NCBI GenBank assembly: GCA_900316445.1
Contig: ONCZ01000006.1
Span: forward strand, 1-63,309
Direction of reading: 5' to 3'
Length of the DNA: 63,309 nt
DNA from: an uncultured Prevotellaceae bacterium
GTDB lineage: Bacteria > Bacteroidota > Bacteroidia > Bacteroidales > Bacteroidaceae
Position 1 is the stretch's first letter; every line of letters begins with the position of its first letter. The notes below the pieces were generated by a model, which was not told where the DNA came from, made no database searches, and saw only the letters and a list, made by a program, of their open reading frames with translations. This document shows positions 257 to 59,920 of this stretch, piece by piece. The position numbers and the translations under genes are program-made.

Positions 257-412
257 ATGAAGAGAACATTTCAGCCGCACAATCGCCGTCGCGTTAACAA
301 GCACGGCTTCCGTGAGAGAATGGCCACCAAGAATGGTCGCCGCGTACTGGCTGCCCGTCGTGCTAAGGGCCGCAAGAAGTTAACGGTTTCTGACGAGCGT
401 CACGGAAAGTAA
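257..412 (+). CDS. rpmH: 50S ribosomal protein L34
   Basis: The 51-residue basic protein begins [20 protein letters not shown] and carries the L34 hallmark of Arg/Lys-rich sequence around [21 protein letters not shown]34 is one of the smallest large-subunit proteins and packs against 23S rRNA. The length is about right for the family (44-53 residues). The ATG at 257 is the only start giving the conserved MKRTFQP N-terminus. The gene has its own promoter upstream and a hairpin plus T-run downstream, so it is probably a single-gene unit. The efp-rpmH divergent arrangement is consistent with Bacteroidales chromosomes. Confidence 0.97.
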
Positions 413-442
413 TTCCTGTCGCCAATCAGTGAAATTTGAACG

Positions 443-487
443 AAACAGAGTGAAGTGGAGAGCAATCTTCACTTCTTTCTGTTTTTT
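443..487 (+). terminator. Probable rpmH terminator
   Basis: AACAGAGTGAAG (444-455) can pair with the CTTCACTTCTTTCTG segment (468-481) and is followed by a run of T. This fits a rho-independent terminator 30 bp after the rpmH stop. Confidence 0.55.
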
Positions 488-507
488 ATACCTCTATAAT
501 TTAAATT

Positions 508-540
508 TTTCACTTTTCACTTTTCACTTTTCACTTTTTT
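508..540 (+). repeat. Short tandem tract, unit TTTTCAC
   Basis: Four tandem copies of a 7-bp unit (CACTTTT) run through this gap between rpmH and the PASTA gene. Related CACTTTT/GTGAAAA tracts occur near 11980, 12600, 12700 and 58800. The 244-bp gap 413-656 holds only the terminator, this tract and promoter boxes. Confidence 0.75.
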
Positions 541-602
541 TCGTACCTTTGAGCTTTGCTCGAAGATACTTTCGCTCGAAAATGAAAATAAATTGCATTT
601 TA

Positions 603-634
603 TTTTGCATTTTGCTCGCTTATTCGTATCTTTG
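603..634 (+). promoter_or_regulatory. Probable promoter of PASTA-rluD-ddl
   Basis: TATCTTTG at 627-634 is a -7 box. TTTTG at 603-607 is the -33 element, 19 bp away. The start would lie 15-20 bp before the ATG at 657. A second match, TACCTTTG at 544-551, lies further upstream. Confidence 0.65.
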
Positions 635-656
635 CACGTGAGAAATCAGAAACGAG

Positions 657-1301
657 ATGAAAGTAAAGGAATTCTTCGGTAAGTTTGGGAGTGCCTTTCT
701 GTGGGGAAACCTGTTGGCGATGCTGATAGTCATCGTGCTTTTGGCACTGGGTGTGAAATACGGACTCGACTGGTATACCCATCACGGTGAAGGCGTCAGG
801 ATACCTAAGGTGGAGGGCATGGACTATGGTAAGGCCCGCAGTCTGTTAGAGGCCCACGGCCTGAACATCATGGTCAGCGACTCTGGCTATAACAAGGCGA
901 TGGCAGCCAACAGCGTCCTGATTCAGAATCCGGGTGCTGGTACGACGGTGAAGTTGGGACACACGGTCTATGTGACGGTCAACTCCCCCTCGTCGCCTTC
1001 ATTTGCCATCCCCGATATCGTCGATAACAGTAGTTTCCGTGAGGCAGAGGCAAAGCTGATGTCCCTGGGCTTCAAGCTTACGCCTCCTCAGGAGGTGGCT
1101 GGCGAGAAAGACTGGGTTTATGGTGTGCTCTGTCGTGGACGACGGGTCTCTGCTGGTGAACGTGTCTCTATCGACCACCCGTTGACCCTGATGATAGGCA
1201 GTGGGGAATATGATTCCGATGAAGAAATCGATTATATAGAACCCGAATACCGCCTGATGGAGAGCGGCAACGTGGACGAGTTTGAGGAAGTGGTAGAGTG
1301 A
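657..1301 (+). CDS. PASTA-domain membrane protein
   Basis: This 214-residue protein has a cytoplasmic N-terminus, one transmembrane segment at about residues 15-38 (LWGNLLAMLIVIVLLALGV), and then at least two PASTA repeats (about 47-110 and 115-180; RIPKVEGMDYGKARSLLEAH, IPDIVDNSSFREAEAKLMSL). The tail is very acidic. PASTA domains bind muropeptide-like ligands or act as spacers in cell-wall proteins such as PknB or PBP2x. Here there is no kinase or transpeptidase domain, so it is a stand-alone PASTA protein in the inner membrane facing the periplasm. It sits directly before rluD and ddl, and ddl is a peptidoglycan precursor enzyme, which suits a wall-related role. Exact function is unknown. 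Confidence 0.88.
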   Translation: MKVKEFFGKFGSAFLWGNLLAMLIVIVLLALGVKYGLDWYTHHGEGVRIPKVEGMDYGKARSLLEAHGLNIMVSDSGYNKAMAANSVLIQNPGAGTTVKLGHTVYVTVNSPSSPSFAIPDIVDNSSFREAEAKLMSLGFKLTPPQEVAGEKDWVYGVLCRGRRVSAGERVSIDHPLTLMIGSGEYDSDEEIDYIEPEYRLMESGNVDEFEEVVE

Positions 1302-1335
1302 TCAAGAATTAGTGAATTAGAGAATTAGAGAATTG
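1299..1335 (+). repeat. Short tandem tract, unit AATTAGAG
   Basis: After TGATCAAG the sequence repeats AATTAGTG/AATTAGAG about four times, bridging the PASTA stop and the rluD start. The same TGATCAAG-(AATTAGAG)n motif occurs inverted at 11945-11979, where it encodes the C-terminus of the DUF4369 protein. Confidence 0.75.
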
Positions 1336-2454
1336 GACTACTTAGATGATGAAGAACTGGATCTGATGGCCGATGCTGATGCCGATGAGCAGGCGGATGA
1401 CGGTCAGCTCTATGAACACTTCCGTATAGAGGTGGACAAGGGGCAAGACGCTGTCCGTATCGACAAGTTCCTCTCCGAGCACCAGCCGCACTCCAGCCGT
1501 AACCGAATCCAGAAGGCAGCCGACGCAGGTTTCATCCATGTCTGCACGGCCGAGGATATCAAACAGGGACGCAGTTCCCGACCTGTGAAGAGCAACTACA
1601 AAGTGCGTCCTGGTGATGTCATCACCTTGATGCTCGACCGTCCGCACTACGACACAACCATCACTCCCGAGGATATTCCCCTCGAGGTGGTCTATGAAGA
1701 CGATGAAATTATGGTCATCAACAAGCCCGCAGGTATGGTAGTCCATCCCGGTTGTGGCAATTTCAGTGGCACGTTGGTTAATGCCATCGCTTGGCACCTG
1801 AAGGATCTGTCCACTTACGACCCTAACGACCCGGAAGTTGGACTCGTCCATCGCATCGACAAGGATACCAGCGGCCTGCTCGTCGTGGCGAAGACACCAG
1901 ATGCGAAGACCTCGCTGGGCAAACAGTTCTTCAACAAGACCACCCACCGCAGTTACAATGCACTGGTTTGGGGTAACTTCGTGGAAGACGAGGGGAGGAT
2001 AGAAGGCAATATCGGACGTGATCCGAAAGACCGTCTGCGGATGGAGGTGTTTCCTCCTGAATCGGAGATTGGCAAGCCTGCCGTCACTCATTACAAGGTG
2101 CTTGAACGTTATGGCTACGTCACCTTGATAGAGTGTATCTTGGAAACGGGGCGCACACATCAGATCAGGGCCCACATGAAGCACATCGGCCATCCGCTGT
2201 TCTGCGACGAGCGCTATGGCGGAACGGAAATCCTCCGTGGTGAGCGTACAGCCAGTTATAAGGCATACATCCAGAACTGCTTCAAGCTCTGTCCGCGACA
2301 GGTGCTCCATGCCCGCACTCTGGGATTCGTCCATCCCTCGACGGGCCGGCAGATGGACTTCACTTCTGAGTGGCCTGCCGATATGACGGCCCTCATTGAA
2401 AAGTGGCGCAAGACCTACCCCCAACCCCTCCCAAAGGGAGGGGAGTTTGAATAG
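1333..2454 (+). CDS. rluD: RluA-family 23S rRNA pseudouridine synthase
   Basis: The protein has an N-terminal S4-like RNA-binding domain (about residues 30-95, IDKFLSEHQPHSSRNRIQKA) and the RluA catalytic domain with the HRIDKDTSGLLVVAK motif (catalytic Asp within HRIDKDTSGL) and a C-terminal RTHQIRAHMKHIGHPL block. It converts uridines in 23S rRNA helix 69 or a related site to pseudouridine. The annotated start is a TTG at 1333, and an ATG at 1366 (MADADADEQ) is an equally good alternative. The acidic N-terminus is poorly conserved and partly overlaps the AATTAGAG tract. The last residues, YPQPLPKGGEFE, are encoded by a GC-rich hairpin repeat that occurs elsewhere in the window, so the C-terminus appears to be repeat-derived. 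Family is certain; which uridines are targeted is not. Confidence 0.92.
   Translation: MDYLDDEELDLMADADADEQADDGQLYEHFRIEVDKGQDAVRIDKFLSEHQPHSSRNRIQKAADAGFIHVCTAEDIKQGRSSRPVKSNYKVRPGDVITLMLDRPHYDTTITPEDIPLEVVYEDDEIMVINKPAGMVVHPGCGNFSGTLVNAIAWHLKDLSTYDPNDPEVGLVHRIDKDTSGLLVVAKTPDAKTSLGKQFFNKTTHRSYNALVWGNFVEDEGRIEGNIGRDPKDRLRMEVFPPESEIGKPAVTHYKVLERYGYVTLIECILETGRTHQIRAHMKHIGHPLFCDERYGGTEILRGERTASYKAYIQNCFKLCPRQVLHARTLGFVHPSTGRQMDFTSEWPADMTALIEKWRKTYPQPLPKGGEFE
2416..2449 (-). repeat. GC-rich hairpin repeat, copy 1 (in rluD end)
   Basis: The minus strand reads a CCCCTCCC-GGGAGGGG hairpin followed by TTGGGGGT. It is one of seven copies in the window and lies in frame at the end of rluD. Copy 2 is inverted 65 bp downstream. 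Confidence 0.8.
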
Positions 2455-2484
2455 ACTCAGAATTATATATAATCACATATAAAT

Positions 2485-3525
2485 ATGGAAAATAGGAATA
2501 ATATAAGTAATCAAGCCCCCCTCCCCTCGGGAGGGGTCGGGGGTGGGTTCCGGACCATTGCCATCGTTTGTGGTGGCGACTCATCCGAGCACGATGTCTC
2601 GCTGCGCTCGGCACAGGGACTTTACTCCTTCTTCGACAAGGAGCGTTACGATGTCTATATTGTTGATATCAAAGGTCAGGACTGGCATGTTGAGCTGCAT
2701 GACGGAACGACAACCAAGATCGACCGCAACGATTTCTCCTTCGTCGAGGACGGCAAGGCCAAGTTATTCGACTATGCCTATATCACCATTCATGGCACTC
2801 CGGGTGAGAACGGCCTGTTGCAAGGTTACTTCGATCTGATTGATCTACCATACAGTACCAGTGGTGTGTTGGTTGAGGCTATGACCTTCGATAAGTTTGT
2901 GCTCAATCAGTATCTGCGCAGTTATGGTGTTAGCGTGGCCGACTCCCTGTTGATTCGCAAGGGTTACGAGGAGTTGGTGAGCGATGATGAGGTTGAGGAA
3001 CGTATCGGTATGCCCTGCTTCGTCAAGCCTGCTGCTGACGGATCGTCGTTTGGCGTATCCAAGGTGAAGAACAAGGATCAGTTGGCTCCCGCCATCCGTA
3101 AGGCGATGTTGGAGAGTCCTGAGATTATGGTCGAGAGTTATCTCGAAGGTACGGAGATTACCCAGGGCATTTACAAGACCCGTGAGAAGACCGTCATCTT
3201 CCCCATCACCGAGGTGGTGACGAGCAACGAGTTTTTCGACTACGACGCCAAGTACAATGGTCAGGTGAAGGAGATCACGCCGGCACGCATTGCTCCAGAG
3301 ATTGCCGACCGTGTGTCGAAGATTACCAGCCACATCTACGACATCCTCCATTGTAATGGCATCATCCGCATCGACTATATCATCTCTCCTGAGGGTAAGA
3401 TCTCGATGCTTGAGGTGAATACCACACCAGGTATGACTGCCACCAGTTTCATCCCCCAGCAGGTGCGTGCCGCCGGCCTTGAGATGAAGGATGTCCTCTC
3501 CGACATCGTTGAAAACTCTTTTTAA
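2485..3525 (+). CDS. ddl: D-alanine--D-alanine ligase
   Basis: This ATP-grasp enzyme joins two D-alanines for the peptidoglycan stem peptide in the cytoplasm. The sequence shows the N-terminal domain motif AIVCGGDSSEHDVSLRSAQG (residues 25-44), the ATP-grasp segment MPCFVKPAADGSSFGVSKV, and the metal-binding end DYIISPEGKISMLEVNTTPG. Length (346) is normal, but the first 22 residues (MENRNNISNQAPLPSGGVGG) precede the usual N-terminus. They are encoded by hairpin repeat copy 2, so the native start was probably displaced by a repeat. It follows rluD by 30 bp and is the third gene of a likely operon. Confidence 0.96.
   Translation: MENRNNISNQAPLPSGGVGGGFRTIAIVCGGDSSEHDVSLRSAQGLYSFFDKERYDVYIVDIKGQDWHVELHDGTTTKIDRNDFSFVEDGKAKLFDYAYITIHGTPGENGLLQGYFDLIDLPYSTSGVLVEAMTFDKFVLNQYLRSYGVSVADSLLIRKGYEELVSDDEVEERIGMPCFVKPAADGSSFGVSKVKNKDQLAPAIRKAMLESPEIMVESYLEGTEITQGIYKTREKTVIFPITEVVTSNEFFDYDAKYNGQVKEITPARIAPEIADRVSKITSHIYDILHCNGIIRIDYIISPEGKISMLEVNTTPGMTATSFIPQQVRAAGLEMKDVLSDIVENSF
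2514..2551 (+). repeat. GC-rich hairpin repeat, copy 2 (in ddl N-terminus)
   Basis: CCCCTCCC-CTC-GGGAGGGG followed by TCGGGGGTGGG. The copy is in frame in ddl and encodes APLPSGGVGGG. It forms an inverted pair with copy 1. Confidence 0.85.
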
Positions 3526-3564
3526 TTGAGAATTGAGAGTTGAGAATTGAGAATTATGATTACC
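3524..3564 (+). repeat. Left 41-bp arm of the inverted-repeat element
   Basis: It begins AATTGAGAATTGAGAGTTGA and ends ATGATTACC. It is the exact reverse complement of 3962-4002. Confidence 0.95.
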
Positions 3565-3579
3565 CTAATCCCTTGAGTT

Positions 3580-3949
3580 GTGCTACAGAGGAAAGAGAAT
3601 ATTATTTTGGCAAAGACGGATGCATTCGGTAATCGTATTCTCAAACTTTATCAGTATCTGATTAAAGAAAAGCAAGAGTTTATACTTTCTAAACAAATAC
3701 TGAGGAGTGGGACCAGTATTGGAGCAAATACCGCAGAGGCTCGAAATGCTCAAGGAGAAAAGGATTTTATAAATAAACTGAATATTGCATTAAAGGAAGC
3801 GGATGAGACAGAGTATTGGTTGAAGAAGTTACAATCTGGTGAGTACATTTCTTACTCCATGTCAGTATGAGTCAATGCATAATGACAACGAGGAAATCAT
3901 TAAGATTCTGACAAAGATAATAAAAACGATGAAACAAAAAATCTTATAG
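3580..3949 (+). pseudogene. Four-helix-bundle (S23/IVP-like) protein, frameshifted
   Basis: From a GTG at 3580 the frame gives KTDAFGNRILKLYQYLIKEK, RSGTSIGANTAEARNAQGEK and ALKEADETEYWLKKLQSGEY, the signature of the four-helix-bundle family linked to 23S rRNA intervening sequences and related to the Avd accessory protein of diversity-generating retroelements. The frame ends at 3870. The normal C-terminus (QYESMHNDNEEIIKILTKII, then KTMKQKIL) continues in the +1 frame to a stop at 3949. The shift falls near 3850-3860, so about one base has been lost. The family binds nucleic acid, but its exact role is unsettled. The broken frame and GTG start suggest a recent inactivation, unless recoding occurs. 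Confidence 0.85.
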
Positions 3950-3952
3950 TTC

Positions 3953-5215
3953 ATGGAGTCAGGTAATCATAATTCTCAATTCTCAACTCTCAATTCTCAA
4001 TTGTCAGAGTTTGATGAGATTCGGCCTTATGAGCCGGAGGAGATGAAGCAGGCGTTCGAAGACTTGCTCAACGACCGCCAGTTTAATGTGCTGATGAAAG
4101 GCTTTGCCCCGTGGCTGCCGAAAGGCGTCCGCAACGGACTGCTGCGGCTTGCCTTCATAGGCGTCAAGACACCGCTCGACTTCCAGTTGCGGTTTATGAA
4201 ACCCATCGTGAAGTATATCATCCGTAAGCATACCGATGGCTGTACATTTGACGATACAGCTCTTCGGAGGTACGGTGGCACGGTGGCACGGGGGTACGAG
4301 AATACCTCTGCCGCAGACATTTCTCGCACCTCCGTACCCCCGCACCCCCGCACCTCCGAACGTTTTACGTTCGTCTCGAACCATCGTGACATCGTGCTCG
4401 ACTCTGCCTTCTTGGATTTGAAACTGGTTGAGAAGGATTATCCCACCACCGTCGAGATCGGCATCGGCGACAACCTCCTGATCTATCCTTGGATCAAGAG
4501 GCTCGTCCGTATGAACAAGGCCTTTACCGTTCGCCGTGGTCTTTCCCTCCGTGAGACACTCGCTGCCTCACAGCTCATGAGCCGTTACATCCATTTCGCT
4601 GTGACACAGAAGAAGGAGAACATCTGGCTGGCCCAGCGCGAGGGTAGGGCAAAGGACTCCGACGACCGTACCCAGGAAGCTGTGCTGAAGATGCTGGCGA
4701 TGGGTGGTAACCTTCAGGAACTCAATATCGTGCCCCTGACCATCAGCTACGAGTACGACCCCTGCGACTATCTCAAGGCCCAGGAATTGCAACAGAAACG
4801 CGATAACCCTGCCTTTAAGAAGTCCCGTCAGGATGACCTCGACAATATGAAGACTGGTATCTTTGGCTACAAAGGCCGTGTGCACTATCATTGTGCAGCG
4901 CCCATCAACACATGGATCGAAGAACTCTCCGACCTTCCCAAGACGGAGTACTATAAGGCGGTGGCAGAGCGGATGGATAAGGACATCCATCAGGGTTATG
5001 AGTTGTTCCCCTGCAACTATATTGCCCTTGACGAACTGCACGGCGATGCTTCCAATGCCGCTCACTATACGAAGGCCGACAAGCAGCGCTTTGAGAACTA
5101 CCTCGCAGGTCAGATGGTCAAGATCACACTCGACAACAAGGATGAGGCTTTCCTCCGTGAGCGCATCCTCACGATGTATGCCAATCCGTTACTCAATAAA
5201 CTTGCTGCCGTATGA
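3953..5215 (+). CDS. Acyltransferase (PlsC-like) with repeat insertions
   Basis: The protein belongs to the glycerol-3-phosphate/lysophospholipid acyltransferase superfamily. The catalytic block is FVSNHRDIVLDSAFLDL, with His and Asp spaced one residue wider than the usual HX4D. Further conserved blocks are REGRAKDSDDRTQEAVLKML and NIVPLTISYEYDPC. It probably acylates a lipid precursor at the inner membrane. Two stretches look foreign. Residues 2-18 are encoded by the right arm of the inverted-repeat element, and residues about 103-139 (ALRRYGGTVARG to SVPPHPRTSE) come from a GC-rich inverted tract placed just before the catalytic block. The start at 3953 is the only ATG ahead of the conserved EFDEIRPYEPEEM. 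It overlaps the next gene by ATGA, so the two are translationally coupled. The exact acyl acceptor is unknown. Confidence 0.85.
   Translation: MESGNHNSQFSTLNSQLSEFDEIRPYEPEEMKQAFEDLLNDRQFNVLMKGFAPWLPKGVRNGLLRLAFIGVKTPLDFQLRFMKPIVKYIIRKHTDGCTFDDTALRRYGGTVARGYENTSAADISRTSVPPHPRTSERFTFVSNHRDIVLDSAFLDLKLVEKDYPTTVEIGIGDNLLIYPWIKRLVRMNKAFTVRRGLSLRETLAASQLMSRYIHFAVTQKKENIWLAQREGRAKDSDDRTQEAVLKMLAMGGNLQELNIVPLTISYEYDPCDYLKAQELQQKRDNPAFKKSRQDDLDNMKTGIFGYKGRVHYHCAAPINTWIEELSDLPKTEYYKAVAERMDKDIHQGYELFPCNYIALDELHGDASNAAHYTKADKQRFENYLAGQMVKITLDNKDEAFLRERILTMYANPLLNKLAAV
3962..4002 (+). repeat. Right 41-bp arm of the inverted-repeat element
   Basis: It begins GGTAATCATAATTCTCAATT and is a perfect inverted copy of 3524-3564. 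In the acyltransferase frame it encodes GNHNSQFSTLNSQL. Confidence 0.95.
4261..4370 (+). repeat. GC-rich inverted tract inside acyltransferase gene
   Basis: Tandem GGTGGCAC-like units (CGGAGGTACGGTGGCACGG onward, 4266-4299) face an imperfect inverted set (CGCACCTCCGTACCCCCGC onward, 4326-4370) across about 30 bp. The insert is in frame. Confidence 0.75.
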
Positions 5216-5913
5216 AGTCCTTTCTTCGTCTGATAGTAATCATAATTCTCAACTCTCAACTCTCAATTCTCAATAGCTCCTGCACTCAGGACGGCTATGA
5301 CAAGGGCGAGGGGCAGTATTCTTATTTGCGTGGCGACTTCGTTGAGGCCTATATTGGAGCAGACAAGAATATGGTATCTCTCATGACTGATGAGGGTGAG
5401 ACACTTCCTTTGTCACAACCCCATACCGCCAAATGGATTACCCGTTCCGACACCGTCTATCGCTGTATGTTATATTATAATAAGGTACGCGATAGCAAGG
5501 GACAAGATATGGCTGAGGCTATATCCGTCGGTGAAGTGCCTTGTCCGGTGATTATCCCTTTGTCAAAGCTTGAAGTGGAGATGAAGACTGACCCTGTGAA
5601 GTTCGAGAGTGCTTGGATGAGCAAGACGGGTAAATATATCAATCTCAGTTTTGCCCTGAAGACCGGCACGACAGAAGATGAAGAGGCCATTCACTCCTTG
5701 CGGGTCGTACAAGATACAATTTTGACGAATCCGGACGGCACCAGCACCAGCTATCTCCGTCTATATCACGACCAGGGCGGTGTGCCGGATTACTATTCCA
5801 CACAGGTCTATGCCAGTCTCATCACCTCAGAGATCCTTGCAGATTCCGCCTGTATCTCGATCAACACTTACAAGGGAATTATCACGAAGGCTTTCCAGAT
5901 AAAGAAGGAATGA
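5212..5913 (+). CDS. NigD-like lipoprotein
   Basis: This 233-residue predicted lipoprotein has a signal peptide ending near Cys24 (ILNSSCTQDG). The mature part starts with a beta-rich OB-like region (YSYLRGDFVEAYIGADKNMV, DEGETLPLSQP) and continues with a second beta domain, which resembles the two-domain NigD-like family of Bacteroidales. The function of that family is not established. The hydrophobic core of the signal peptide (IVIIILNSQLSILNS) is encoded by a tandem repeat tract. The gene overlaps both neighbours by 4 bp (ATGA), so acyltransferase, this gene and the DUF6057 gene form a tight operon. Assignment to NigD-like is by overall pattern and is tentative; lipoprotein status is firmer. 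Confidence 0.7.
   Translation: MKSFLRLIVIIILNSQLSILNSSCTQDGYDKGEGQYSYLRGDFVEAYIGADKNMVSLMTDEGETLPLSQPHTAKWITRSDTVYRCMLYYNKVRDSKGQDMAEAISVGEVPCPVIIPLSKLEVEMKTDPVKFESAWMSKTGKYINLSFALKTGTTEDEEAIHSLRVVQDTILTNPDGTSTSYLRLYHDQGGVPDYYSTQVYASLITSEILADSACISINTYKGIITKAFQIKKE
5236..5274 (+). repeat. Tandem tract (CTCAATT)n encoding a signal peptide
   Basis: AGTAATCATAATTCTCAACTC and following 7-bp units match the right arm of the 3524-4002 element, including the ATCATAATTCTCAA boundary. The tract lies inside the lipoprotein signal peptide. Confidence 0.85.
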
Positions 5914-16378: not shown

Positions 16379-16722
16379 AACCGAAACTTTACATCTATTT
16401 TGCCTCTACTTTACCTCTACTTTGCTTCTACTTTACATCTACTTATCTTCTACCAATTGTCTATAAAAAGGAAGAAGGTGTGACGTTGTTGCGTTGTTCT
16501 TAATGATACAATAGTCAAGATTTCCATTAGGTGGAAGAATTGTTCCCACGGTGGGAATATGGTGTTCCCATGCTGGGAACATAACATTCCCACCGTGGGA
16601 ACATACTATAAGCCTAAGGCTTTCTGCGTGTAGAGATAAGGCAGATGGTTAGTAGGGATAATGTAGAGGTAAGGTAGAAGCAAAGTAGAGGCAAAGTAGA
16701 GGTAAAGTAGAAGGAAATAATT
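16379..16722. repeat. Inverted 11-bp tandem tracts around palindromes
   Basis: The left tract (about 16395-16452) has four units like CTCTACTTTGC. The right tract (about 16668-16722) has five units like GTAGAGGCAAA, the reverse complement. Between them at 16541-16603 are TTCCCACGGTGGGAA, GTTCCCATGCTGGGAAC and ATTCCCACCGTGGGAAC. The two tracts could form a stem of about 50 bp. Confidence 0.75.
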
Positions 16723-25425: not shown

Positions 25426-25493
25426 ACCGCAGATTACACAGATTATACAGATTATTTTCATTTTTTTTCTGCGGAATCTGTGTAATCTGCGGT
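25426..25493. repeat. 19-bp perfect inverted repeat between divergent promoters
   Basis: ACCGCAGATTACACAGATT (25426-25444) and its exact reverse complement (25475-25493) flank 30 bp of mostly T. They sit between the ltaE and phosphatase -7 boxes. Confidence 0.85.
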
Positions 25494-25517: not shown

Positions 25518-27692
25518 ATGATCAAGAAAGTACTTCTGATATTCCTTATAGAACTTATGGGGACTAGTCCCGTGAGTTCTCAAAGAGACATCATGCCACC
25601 TGCTCCTGATTATGGGGACGCTTCACAATGGTATATCCACGACCAGAACGGCGTTGCTGACATCTTCTATGTGATCTCCACAGAGACGGGCGACCACATG
25701 GAGGGTACTGATACCTGCCATTTCGCCAATACCAAACATCCCCACCAACGGGCTCAGATGCTGATGGAGATGGCGGCAGTGGATTCCTTCTATACAGGCA
25801 AGTTGAATTATTACTCCCCCTACTATCGTCAGGTTTCCATGCATGCTTTGACTGATCCGAAACGGTTCCCAGTACGTATGGCCAGGGCGATAGAGGATGT
25901 GAAAGTGAGTTGGCAGTATTATCTGGAGCACTTTAATCAGGGCCGTCCTTTTATCCTGGCGGGTTACAGTCAGGGTGCTGCCGCCGTGTTGGCTATCATG
26001 AGGGAGATGCCCGACAGTATCGCCAAGCGGATGGTGGCATCATACGTTATCGGTTATAAGGTGACGGCTGGTGACTTGGATGATATCCAGAATCTCCGTC
26101 CTGCCAGAGGGGCAACGGATGTAGGTGTGACGGTGTGTTTTAACTCGGTGGCATCACCAGAGGGAGAACTGGCTGCCGTCAGTGGCGGGAACCTGTTGTG
26201 CATCAATCCTGCGAACTGGCGAAGAGATACGGTCAGCACCTCTTTTATATATAATATGCCGCCGGTAAGGGACACCCTCACCGTGGCCTGCGATCCGGAG
26301 CGCCATCTGTTGATGGTCGGGGGATTGGATAAACAGGAGATCCTGCCTGTCATCGGCAAGTCCGGCAATTACCATAATTATGAACTGCGGTTCTATCATC
26401 CCTTTATCCGTCAGAATATGGCAGACCGTGTGGCGGCTTATCTGAAGGCTGTCAGTCATCAACCGTCGGTTAAGGAAGAGATCTTGGAGGATGTGACTTG
26501 TGCGGCTGGCGTGAATAAGGCTTATGTTCCCGCCGTCAAGAGGTCATGGACTGCGGCGCCTGACGGTAAGTCGCCGTTTGCTATCATTGCATACGGACGT
26601 CACGGTTCTTGCTATCTGGGCAAACCGTCAGACTATGATGCGCCTCTCAATGTGTTGGCGAAGGCTGATAGTATCGACCGGCTGACACCTTTAGGCAAGA
26701 GTGTCTTGGATCGTCTGAAGCTGATACGAAGAGATGCACAAAACCATTGGGGCGAACTGACGGAAACCGGTGTCCGTCAGCAGTGTCAGATTGCCTGGGA
26801 GTTGATAGAGCGGATGCCAGAGATATTCAATAAGGATGCCACTCATCTGGGGGCACGTAGCCTGAGGAACACCCGATGCATGCTTTCGATGGAACAGCTG
26901 ATGATGCATGTGGCGAGGGCTTGCCGTATCCGTGTCTATCATAATGCCAGCAATGAATATTCCTATTATCTGAATCATCAGGAGGAAGAGCATCTCCGTA
27001 TCCGGAAAGACTCTCTGGCTAAGGTGGCATTTGATGCCTTCTCAAAGAAATACGAGGATGGTGACCGACTGGCGAAGACACTCTTTACTGACCCAGATTA
27101 CATTCGTGACCAGGTGGATGTGCAGACACTGAGCGACCAGCTCTTCAAGATTGCCGGCAGTATACAGAATACCAGTCTGGATGGGAAAGTGTCGCTCTAT
27201 GACTTATTTACGGAAGATGAAATCTATCATCAATGGAAGAAGCAGAATGCCTGGAACTATGTGAACTATGGGAATTTTAGGAGAGAAGGAGTAAGGAGAG
27301 AAGGAGAAAAGGAGGGTCTGGAGCATCGCCTCCTGCGTCGCCTGTTGCATGATGCAGATACAGCCCTGACCATGAAAGCAACGGCAGTCTTCCAATATGC
27401 CGATGAGACCAGCTTCCTCCCGTTGGTTAGCCTGATGGAAATTAATGGCTGTGGACTGGCTACCGATGATCTGGAGACGATTGACGAGAAGGGCTGGGCA
27501 GACTATCGTATCTGTCCGATGAGTGCCAACCTGCAGTGGATCCTCTATCGCAAGGATGAGGAAGATAAGGATGTGAGGATCAAGGTACTACTGAATGGTC
27601 AGGAGGCTACGCTGCCTATTCCTTCGGAGAATGCTCCTTATTATCATTTGAGGGATTTTAAAGACTATTATCTTAAAAAAGTCACAGAATGA
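25518..27692 (+). CDS. DUF3089 hydrolase fused to a degenerate histidine phosphatase domain
   Basis: The 724-residue secreted protein has two parts. Residues about 25-310 are a DUF3089-type alpha/beta hydrolase with the nucleophile elbow GYSQGAA (Ser151). Residues about 345-724 match the branch-2 histidine acid phosphatase-like domain of the next gene. In that domain the active-site motif RHGxR reads RHGSC (Arg361 to Cys365), and the proton-donor HE reads DE (Asp629-Glu630). Both catalytic changes predict loss of phosphatase activity, leaving the esterase-like half as the possible enzyme. A repeat tract encodes RREGVRREGEKEG in a loop near residue 593. It overlaps the next gene by ATGA. The substrate is unknown; an ester or inositol-phosphate-like ligand is only a guess. 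Confidence 0.85.
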   Translation: MIKKVLLIFLIELMGTSPVSSQRDIMPPAPDYGDASQWYIHDQNGVADIFYVISTETGDHMEGTDTCHFANTKHPHQRAQMLMEMAAVDSFYTGKLNYYSPYYRQVSMHALTDPKRFPVRMARAIEDVKVSWQYYLEHFNQGRPFILAGYSQGAAAVLAIMREMPDSIAKRMVASYVIGYKVTAGDLDDIQNLRPARGATDVGVTVCFNSVASPEGELAAVSGGNLLCINPANWRRDTVSTSFIYNMPPVRDTLTVACDPERHLLMVGGLDKQEILPVIGKSGNYHNYELRFYHPFIRQNMADRVAAYLKAVSHQPSVKEEILEDVTCAAGVNKAYVPAVKRSWTAAPDGKSPFAIIAYGRHGSCYLGKPSDYDAPLNVLAKADSIDRLTPLGKSVLDRLKLIRRDAQNHWGELTETGVRQQCQIAWELIERMPEIFNKDATHLGARSLRNTRCMLSMEQLMMHVARACRIRVYHNASNEYSYYLNHQEEEHLRIRKDSLAKVAFDAFSKKYEDGDRLAKTLFTDPDYIRDQVDVQTLSDQLFKIAGSIQNTSLDGKVSLYDLFTEDEIYHQWKKQNAWNYVNYGNFRREGVRREGEKEGLEHRLLRRLLHDADTALTMKATAVFQYADETSFLPLVSLMEINGCGLATDDLETIDEKGWADYRICPMSANLQWILYRKDEEDKDVRIKVLLNGQEATLPIPSENAPYYHLRDFKDYYLKKVTE
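27277..27317 (-). repeat. 27-mer repeat family (GGAGAGAAGGAGTAA), copy 1
   Basis: AGGAGAGAAGGAGTAAGGAG and following bases are the reverse complement of the tracts at 27836 and 32307. It is in frame in the fusion gene. Confidence 0.85.
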
Positions 27693-29143
27693 CACAGATG
27701 ATTATGGTCACACGGAAATCACAGAAATCACGGCGCTCGAGCTCTGCTCGCTTGCTACCGAAGGGACGCAAGAAATGGTCGACCGGTGGTCGACGCCCGG
27801 CACAGAGAATACTGCAGTCGGTACTCTTTACATTCCTCCTTCTCTCCTTACTCCTTCTCTCCTCCTCTCCTTCTTCTGCGCAGTCTGTTTTCGATATTAT
27901 CGAATTTAACCGTAGTTTTGCGGCCAGCAACTACTGTATATATCCTGATACGGTGATTCCTAACCTGACGCCGGCGCCAGAAGGCAAGGCTCCTTTCTAT
28001 ATCTCCCACTATGGCCGTCACGGTTCTCGTTATATCCAAAATCGCAGAGGGTTTGATGTCCCTTACAAGATGCTTTGCTGTGCCGACAGCCTGAATGAGC
28101 TTAGTGAGGCTGGACAAATGGTGATGAATAGCATGCGGATGATATATGCCGACACCGACAAGCACTGGGGTGACTTGACCTCTTATGGACAGAGACAGCT
28201 CCGTGGTATAGCCCAGCGAATGTTGGAAAATTTCCCAGAAGTATTCAACGGCGATGCCCATGTCGATGCCCGCAGTACTGTCGTACCTCGTTGCATCCTT
28301 TCGATGGGTTCGGCCATGCATGTCATGGCCAGCATGAACCCTCAGTTGCGTATCTCGATGAAGGCCTCGCAGGAGGATATGTGGTATATGAATCATCAAG
28401 ACCCAGTGTTAAGAAAGAATGACATGACACCAGAGGCGACGAAAGCCTATAATGAGTATATCGAACATCGTGAGCATAACGAACGGCTGATGCAGTTGCT
28501 CTTTGTCCATCCGGATTCCGTCCGTGGTGTGGTCAATGACATCTGGCTGAACTACTATCTGATTAAGCTGGGGCTTTTTCAATTGAATACACATCTGTAT
28601 AAGCATACCTATTTGATGGACATCTTCTCTTCTGAGGAAATCTATCGGCTATGGCAATGGGAAAATGTATGGTGGTATGTCTTGTATGGCGCCTGTCCGC
28701 TGAATGGGGGGCACCAGCCTTACACCCAACGTTATCTGCTCAAAAAGATCATCGAAGATGCCGACAGTTGCATCCTGTTGGAACGGCCTGGGGCGCAGTT
28801 GCGATTTGGACACGAGACGGTGCTACTGCCACTGGCATGCCTGATTGGCATCAATGGCTTCGACTTGGAAACGGATAACTTGAATGAGTTGGAAGAGAAA
28901 GGATGGTGGGCATCGAAGGTGTTCCCCATGGGCTCAAACCTCCAGTTTGTCTTCTACCGCAAGGATATCCACGACGAGGACGTGCTTTTCAAGGTGCTGT
29001 TGAACGAAAGAGAGGCTACGTTGCCTATTCCGACGGACGTAGCCCCCTATTATCATTGGAAGGATTTCCGAGAACACTATCTGAAGAAGATCGAGGACTA
29101 TGAACAGTTGCGCAATGGCGCAAGTTCGACGAAGAGCCAATAA
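27689..29143 (+). CDS. Histidine acid phosphatase-like secreted protein
   Basis: This member of the histidine phosphatase branch 2 family (phytase/MINPP-like) has RHGSR at residues 110-114 and an HE pair at 375-376, so both catalytic elements are intact. That contrasts with the preceding paralogous domain. It probably removes phosphate from small phosphomonoesters in the periplasm or outside. The N-terminus is odd: about 40 basic residues (RKSQKSRRSSSARLLPKGRK) precede a signal peptide (VLFTFLLLSLLLLSSSPSSA) that is encoded by a CTCCTTCTCTC repeat tract. The start ATG at 27689 overlaps the previous stop. The pair may act on one substrate, with the degenerate partner as a binding subunit; this is inference. 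Confidence 0.87.
   Translation: MTQMIMVTRKSQKSRRSSSARLLPKGRKKWSTGGRRPAQRILQSVLFTFLLLSLLLLSSSPSSAQSVFDIIEFNRSFAASNYCIYPDTVIPNLTPAPEGKAPFYISHYGRHGSRYIQNRRGFDVPYKMLCCADSLNELSEAGQMVMNSMRMIYADTDKHWGDLTSYGQRQLRGIAQRMLENFPEVFNGDAHVDARSTVVPRCILSMGSAMHVMASMNPQLRISMKASQEDMWYMNHQDPVLRKNDMTPEATKAYNEYIEHREHNERLMQLLFVHPDSVRGVVNDIWLNYYLIKLGLFQLNTHLYKHTYLMDIFSSEEIYRLWQWENVWWYVLYGACPLNGGHQPYTQRYLLKKIIEDADSCILLERPGAQLRFGHETVLLPLACLIGINGFDLETDNLNELEEKGWWASKVFPMGSNLQFVFYRKDIHDEDVLFKVLLNEREATLPIPTDVAPYYHWKDFREHYLKKIEDYEQLRNGASSTKSQ
27836..27872 (+). repeat. 27-mer repeat family, copy 2 (signal peptide)
   Basis: TCCTTCTCTCCTTACTCCTT and following bases encode FLLLSLLLLSS in the phosphatase signal peptide. Confidence 0.85.
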
Positions 29144-59847: not shown

Positions 59848-59920
59848 GGACTACAGGACTTAAGGACTTCTTTCTTCTGCAAAAGGTAGTCGTGTAAGTC
59901 CTGTAGTCCGTTGCTAAATT
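59842..59920 (-). repeat. Inverted-end repeat GCAAGGAC...GTCCGTTGC, copy B
   Basis: GCAAGGACTACAGGACTTAA faces AAGTCCTGTAGTCCGTTGC. It fills the argG-argC gap and matches 34013-34083 in its ends. Confidence 0.8.

Follow-up and report, generated by a model that had tools for sequence, protein, structure and literature searches.

The window analysed here, a stretch of 63,309 nt from an uncultured Prevotellaceae bacterium (contig ONCZ01000006.1), carries between the D-Ala-D-Ala ligase gene ddl and an acyltransferase-like open reading frame (ORF) a gene of the S23 four-helix-bundle family enclosed by two long inverted arms, and this locus is probably one copy of a widespread mobile element of the type of the intervening sequences (IVSs) of 23S rRNA, with the S23 gene lying in a loop closed by a long stem. 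Armed S23 cassettes recur and show signs of having moved, as well as of selection acting on S23 itself; the way in which the element moves is our inference. The locus is made up as follows.

2485..3525, plus strand: ddl, the upstream neighbour, its stop codon abutting the left arm (NF002527 above cut-off)
3524..4002, plus strand: the whole cassette (arm, S23, inverted arm), delimited by arm complementarity and common to the relatives G060, G061 and G062
3524..3564, plus strand: left arm, a heptad array (TTGAGAA/TTGAGAG) with the end AATTATGATTACC, 41/41 against the right arm, period 7 in Tandem Repeats Finder
3580..3870, plus strand: S23/four-helix-bundle ORF of 96 aa with its frame broken near the 3' end (PF05635, TIGR02436)
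3962..4002, minus strand: right arm, repeating the left arm exactly in inverted orientation, within the acyltransferase ORF towards its N-terminus
3953..5215, plus strand: acyltransferase-like ORF, the downstream neighbour (weak PF01553 match)

A first-pass annotation of this DNA had described an S23 gene between two 41-bp arms that are perfectly reverse-complementary, and this is precisely what is found: 3524-3564 and 3962-4002 are complementary at 41/41 nt, their inner end being ATTATGATTACC, which stands outside the repeat pattern, and the enclosed ORF matches PF05635 (E 4e-21) and TIGR02436 (E 2e-24) and no other families. Its sole sequence match in the PDB is 2rld (E 2e-29), and Xcc0516, an S23 relative, is a pentamer. 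The S23 frame is disrupted near the 3' end in the source genome (G000; G-numbers denote genomes and L-numbers fetched loci), and the three relatives carry intact copies. The upstream gene is a D-Ala-D-Ala ligase by family profile, and the downstream ORF matches the Pfam Acyltransferase family at E 7e-4, under the curated cut-off. The proposal that the right arm has become the N-terminus of the acyltransferase holds in so far as the arm does lie within this ORF, but translation of the arm is unproven, since a TTG codon where the right arm ends (4001) is a candidate for the true start. The predicted RNA fold of 3510-4020 has a free energy of -145.3 kcal/mol, which compares with an average of -105.1 (sd 5.3) over 100 shuffled sequences (z -7.6). 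At the gathering threshold of Rfam no match was obtained in L001-L008, the ddl-site cassette included, and the cassette is hence not inside 23S rRNA.

Across several phyla, S23 genes generally come with inverted arms. The source assembly contains nine PF05635 matches, and inverted arms are found close to the gene at eight of these, the arm sequence being different at each and the arm scores ranging from 17 to 41, where the score is the highest reached by any ungapped inverted repeat (+1/-2) that pairs the 200 nt upstream with the 320 nt downstream of the S23 match; the ninth gene is a weak match (35.7 bits) with an arm score of 11. Within the genus, PF05635 is present in 52/60 genomes at E 0.001 or better and above the curated cut-off in 47. 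A wider set of 118 loci was assembled from the nine own loci, 29 of the same genus and 80 named ones that a wide scan supplied; 114 of the 118 were scored, four having short flanks, and the score reaches 14 or more at 101 loci and 20 or more at 70. The first-pass annotation had suggested looking for inverted tandem tracts of this kind at other S23 genes, and at 8/9 own loci and 101/114 loci of the wider set they indeed recur. A score of 14 was reached by none of 224 windows moved by 1000 nt and by 1/354 shuffled flanks, while pairing flanks from different loci gave 19/233, because arm families are shared between loci. In a stricter control using the ORFs in 400 kb of the source genome, 14/284 were flanked, and 3/30 among small ORFs. 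The set spans Bacteroidota together with records labelled Clostridia, Victivallales, Chloracidobacterium, Sulfurovum, Cloacimonadota, Chloroflexi and others, single labels of which may be wrong since many records are metagenome bins. When 100 arms were examined, 94 gave a period call, and this was 7 or 8 in 89.

The same architecture is found on plasmids, a search of which returned 31 records with S23, mostly from cyanobacteria; all 12 fetched copies, a set that the shifted-window control does not cover, carry inverted arms scoring 14 or more. Three copies from cyanobacterial plasmids (L286, L291 and L295) are armed S23 genes inside cas operons, in the order cas6-S23-cas4 twice and cas10-S23-cmr3 once, and 18 S23 genes have been reported from cas loci, where they were regarded as an associated function of interest (PMC3936711). 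Two unannotated phage records, MT835815.1 and MT835590.1, also encode S23 relatives.

In the rRNA IVS, RNase III cuts the stem and the loop is released. One plasmid copy, from Azospirillum lipoferum (L296), connects this classical form to the cassettes described here, since its S23 gene (1501-1818) lies within large subunit rRNA (277-3318, Rfam RF02541) and is flanked by inverted arms of approximately 7-nt repeats with a score of 21; the classical IVS accordingly has the same arms. The earlier interpretation of the ddl locus as an IVS-like element outside rRNA is thereby borne out, both by the 101/114 armed loci and by the like arms of a true 23S IVS, and it withstands the conditions that the first-pass annotation had named as refuting it. 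The IVS of Coxiella burnetii is described as having a 28-bp terminal stem that is cut by RNase III and three heptameric repeats ahead of the S23 ORF, the copy number of which varies between strains, and the origin and movement of rRNA IVSs are called unclear since 1990 (PMC4990558). The likeness is that terminal inverted repeats close a loop which holds a single S23 gene. The ddl-site cassette, however, is situated in a protein operon and not in rRNA, and S23 cassettes differ furthermore in having many arm sequences, many copies per genome and dispersed gene-less relatives. We can conclude that the ddl-site cassette shares gene and stem with the rRNA IVS yet not its location.

Signs of movement come from site comparisons. 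Among the 62 pairs of elements that are at least 75% identical, 35 are at the same site and 27 at different sites, and of the eight pairs that are 85-90% identical six are at different sites. In an alignment of nine such elements, the part in common extends from the inner left array through the gene and into the right array. S23 is missing at 29/30 fetched same-genus ddl-acyltransferase loci (one of the 29, L190, being without an acyltransferase match there), so that orthologous junctions lacking the element, which the first-pass annotation had proposed to seek, do exist. Its view that perfect arms reflect recent arrival is on the other hand rejected, for the ddl insertion is common to G060, G061 and G062, where the surrounding DNA is 76-92% identical and the left arm unchanged over at least 38 nt. 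These same three genomes are empty at the fumarase site that carries cassette L002. By eye, G061 and G062 have a different small hairpin at the L002-equivalent site (L223 and L225), and other inverted G/C-rich repeats without S23 are seen at the ddl-acyltransferase junction of other species (L166, L175 and L177). L005 and L153 represent an orthologous site in two species at which the S23 genes have diverged and the arms are quite different.

Orientation was scored with an ambiguity class, since a method based on the longest ORF had misassigned some loci. Relative to S23, 76 upstream genes are plus and 7 minus among the 118 loci, and 88 downstream genes are plus and 4 minus, the rest being undecided in each case; both neighbours are plus at 58/118 loci and both minus at none. 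Insertion into co-directional pairs is to be expected, because 195/269 neighbouring ORFs of the source genome are co-directional, but random insertion should make antisense copies as frequent as sense copies within such pairs, unlike the observed 58 versus 0. The sense bias could stem from insertion at the RNA level or from survival of only those copies that are read with the host operon. At ten annotated loci on cyanobacterial plasmids, seven copies are co-directional with both neighbours.

The S23 protein is under purifying selection, as judged from a ratio of nonsynonymous to synonymous substitution (dN/dS) of 0.00-0.10 in 13/17 chosen S23 pairs with finite dS, elements at different sites included, although several dS values are near saturation. 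For the arms, the first-pass annotation had offered selection for pairing as an alternative to recent arrival, which may or may not hold, covariation of orthologous arms being mixed; the clear case is the pair L003/L150, with five both-arm changes and no one-sided change.

Arm sequences also occur without the gene. For the arm of the ddl site, 13 more array sites are found in the whole genome, so this arm is not private to ddl; all 13 are singlets, and ATGATTAC terminates 10 of them and, nearly so, one more of the 13. All eight own arms were sought in a 463-kb sample of G000, consisting of 20 stretches from contigs named in prior matches, five of which were already known to hold arrays. Copies of the L001-L008 arms (score at least 20, both strands) number 0, 0, 16, 6, 6, 1, 4 and 8, or 0, 0, 11, 6, 6, 0, 4 and 2 once the five array-known stretches are dropped, so that six, or correspondingly five, of the eight own arms have gene-less copies. 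Shuffled arms gave none in 24 tries, and of 14 other same-genus arms 13 gave none and one gave three. Gene-less copies within the window include the following.

5236..5274, minus strand: solo unit of the ddl-site arm family without inverted partner, 38/39 to the arm, at the start of the next ORF
4263..4360, no strand assigned: hairpin without a gene, within the acyltransferase ORF, its arm family being that of S23 cassette L005 of the same genome
30121..30232, no strand assigned: hairpin without a gene, its arm family being that of S23 cassette L003
34658..34769, no strand assigned: a further hairpin without a gene, likewise of the L003 family
27279..27306, plus strand: array of the family that forms the arms of S23 cassette L004, with an inverted partner at 27836-27863

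Inverted doublets within the window belong to the L003 and L005 arm families. The hairpin at 4263-4360 is missing in G060, G061 and G062, in one of which a solo TTGAGAA unit stands in its place, and the 529 nt between the two L004-type arrays are parts of two phosphatase-like ORFs. The solo unit at 5236-5274 would encode part of the hydrophobic N-terminus of a lipoprotein-like ORF.

Counts of array patterns in nine whole genomes are clearer than the sample counts, yet mixed. TTAGTCG is matched 24 times in G008 and 22 times in G059, each of which has an S23 gene flanked in this way, five times in G044, once in G028 and not at all in the other five. For GGAGTTCAGGAGTTGC there are 31 in G058, where it flanks an S23 gene, three in G059 (two of them being arms), one in G028 and none in six. 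AGTTGAC, counted in overlapping registers, is found 41 times in G044, where it flanks the S23 gene, 69 times in G028, seven times in G003, which lacks S23, twice in G008 and not in the other five. Array density furthermore rises with S23 number (rho 0.69 in 17 genomes; 0.71 in the 16 without G000), six S23-less genomes having 2.5-8.3 arrays per 100 kb and nine genomes with at least six S23 genes 8.3-40.

A second cassette family came to light through the control ORFs: of the 14 that were flanked, two small ones are GxxExxY/PDDEXK_3 nuclease-like. Genes of this family lie at L194:503-934, at L200:13166-13543 on the minus strand and in L298-L334. The corresponding profile PF13366 has eight matches in the source genome, one of them weak, and is present in 41/60 same-genus genomes. 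When 36 GxxExxY loci were examined (the weak match excluded), one of which had a short flank, arms scoring at least 14 were found at 24 of the 35 scored, as compared to 0/66 shifted windows. The arm period, where callable, is mostly 9: among same-genus arms, S23 has a period of 7-8 in 23 and of 9-12 in five, and GxxExxY in one and 11, respectively (Fisher p 2e-5), with three S23 and 12 GxxExxY arms giving no period call. This match between arm period and protein family suggests that each protein, S23 or GxxExxY, reads its own arms. Small gene-less hairpins at 59848-59909 (GGACTACAGGACTTA) and 25426-25493 (ACCGCAGATTACACAGATT) of the window resemble the arms of GxxExxY cassettes.

Several observations weigh against the view of S23 cassettes as mobile elements in which the protein takes part. 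Pairs that are 90% identical or more are at the same site in 12/12 cases, and no transposition was observed. No target-site duplication was detected, as 7/82 loci share at least 6 nt outside the arms against 8.5% in a cross-locus control, a comparison in which a short duplication could be missed because the ends of the element are fuzzy. Nor does S23 encode a known recombinase, profile matches of the enclosed ORF being to S23 families alone, and for Coxiella it is believed that no S23 protein is produced (PMC4990558). Furthermore, 13/114 S23 loci score under 14, and three of the ten annotated cyanobacterial copies are antisense to both neighbours. In orthologous arm columns 18 both-arm changes are outnumbered by 45 one-sided ones, these figures coming from 22 of 23 chosen and overlapping pairs, of which L106/L108 is poorly aligned. 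Two of the eight own arms have no gene-less copy in the 463-kb sample, and in samples of 60-80 kb from other genomes, likewise taken from contigs named in earlier matches, copies were found for 1/7 testable arms. In the AGTTGAC-rich genome G028 none of nine listed S23 genes (of 15 matches) is flanked by AGTTGAC, and G045, with one S23 gene, is an outlier at 28.8 arrays per 100 kb.

With these reservations a mechanism can be outlined, of which stem processing in mRNA, binding of the arms by S23 and copying driven by S23 are the steps that we infer. Transcripts of the ddl-acyltransferase region would fold the arms into a 41-bp duplex and be processed like the stem of an rRNA IVS, which would allow the insertion to be tolerated. 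The S23 protein would bind the arm hairpins and promote the copying of segments bounded by arms, both its own and those without a gene. Since S23 has no recognisable nuclease or polymerase, it might enlist host enzymes for this, either a reverse transcriptase or repair enzymes. Taken to its full extent, S23 would define a new kind of bacterial transposable element without a recognisable transposase, the protein reading its own arms, driving RNA- or hairpin-templated copying and seeding gene-less arrays, with rRNA IVSs, the heptad repeats of other bacteria and the S23 genes of cas loci as its products and the GxxExxY cassettes as a parallel of period 9; this we regard as a tentative proposal, somewhat more apt to fail than to hold.

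The most serious competitor, which nonetheless seems rather unlikely, is that another factor, either a host enzyme or the GxxExxY nuclease, moves arm-bounded segments and that S23 is carried along for some other function. It would account for the gene-less arm copies, for the like arms at 24/35 loci of the unrelated GxxExxY family and for an S23 protein without a catalytic domain, but it is in poor agreement with the association of arm period with protein family (Fisher p 2e-5), with the strong purifying selection on S23 and with the genomes G058, G004 and G035, which carry S23 without a PF13366 match. It is less probable still, and we would be surprised if it were so, that S23 is an ordinary, vertically inherited host gene whose arms are hairpins for mRNA processing or regulation. 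Such a domesticated module would explain why the ddl copy is kept at the same site in four genomes with its arms unchanged, why 35/62 pairs of at least 75% identity share their site and why placement is co-directional; changes of site between close elements, patchy presence at both the ddl and the fumarase site and arm sequences that vary from locus to locus within one genome nevertheless speak against it.

Two further explanations concern the arms themselves. The cassette may have entered a pre-existing one-sided host array, the second arm being an inverted copy of the target, in which case each locus would have its own arm. This was suggested by the empty ddl junctions, some of which have a one-sided array before the acyltransferase start, the array at L165 even ending in TTATGATTACC, like the left arm of the ddl cassette. 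As the sole source of arms it was not borne out at L002, however, where the empty sites are without such an array, and the TTATGATT(AC) arm end is also found in S23 cassettes without adjoining ddl (L070, L071 and L072) as well as in solo units that lie at other genes, all of which makes the explanation quite improbable. Chance, that is, abundant dispersed repeats that happen to flank S23 genes, is the least credible of all: arrays are indeed common, at about 25 per 100 kb in the G000 sample (which stems in part from contigs known to hold arrays), and 14/284 other ORFs are flanked too, but the 8/9, 101/114 and 12/12 armed S23 loci, as opposed to 0/224 shifted windows and those 14/284 ORFs, refute it. 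We therefore return to the IVS-type mobile element as the preferred reading of the ddl locus.

Some features of such an element are reminiscent of other systems. Eukaryotic foldback transposons such as Tetris have long inverted arms made of internal tandem repeats. Classical insertion sequences and miniature inverted-repeat transposable elements share with S23 cassettes the terminal inverted repeats, but the target-site duplication of those elements was not detected in S23 cassettes. In REPIN/RAYT systems a gene is flanked by repeats with copies elsewhere as singlets and inverted doublets (PMC3116915), and S23-flanking repeats likewise have dispersed copies in their own genome (6/8 own arms). 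However, the S23 cassette contains no Y1/HUH transposase, its enclosed ORF matching S23 families alone, its unit is a 7-8-nt tandem array where that of the REPIN is a short palindrome, and two own S23 arms are without gene-less copy in the sample. Dispersed heptad arrays are also known from Xanthomonas and Nostoc (repeats GGGAATC and GGGGA(C/T)T), 70 inverted pairs being reported in X. campestris; the text of the paper makes no mention of S23, four helix or 23S rRNA (PMC4692102), and the S23 of X. campestris, Xcc0516, is named elsewhere (PMC3936711). PF05635 is moreover stated to resemble Avd of diversity-generating retroelements (PMC10053308). Our search of the open-access literature, the coverage of which is partial, returned no report that connects inverted tandem arms with S23 genes lying outside rRNA, which leaves the absence of such a report unproven.

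If S23 cassettes are mobile throughout genomes, the rRNA IVS would be just one landing site of a common element, so that S23 cassettes may explain where ribosomal insertions come from, and the question of IVS origin would become testable in culturable Bacteroidota. It would furthermore provide a possible source for the heptad arrays of repeat-rich genomes, and a different reading of the S23 genes in cas loci, the three fetched cas-operon copies all being armed. Finally, the window contains at 16394-16711 inverted 11-nt tandem arrays (44/49 complementary) that are 220 nt apart and enclose a central palindrome without S23.

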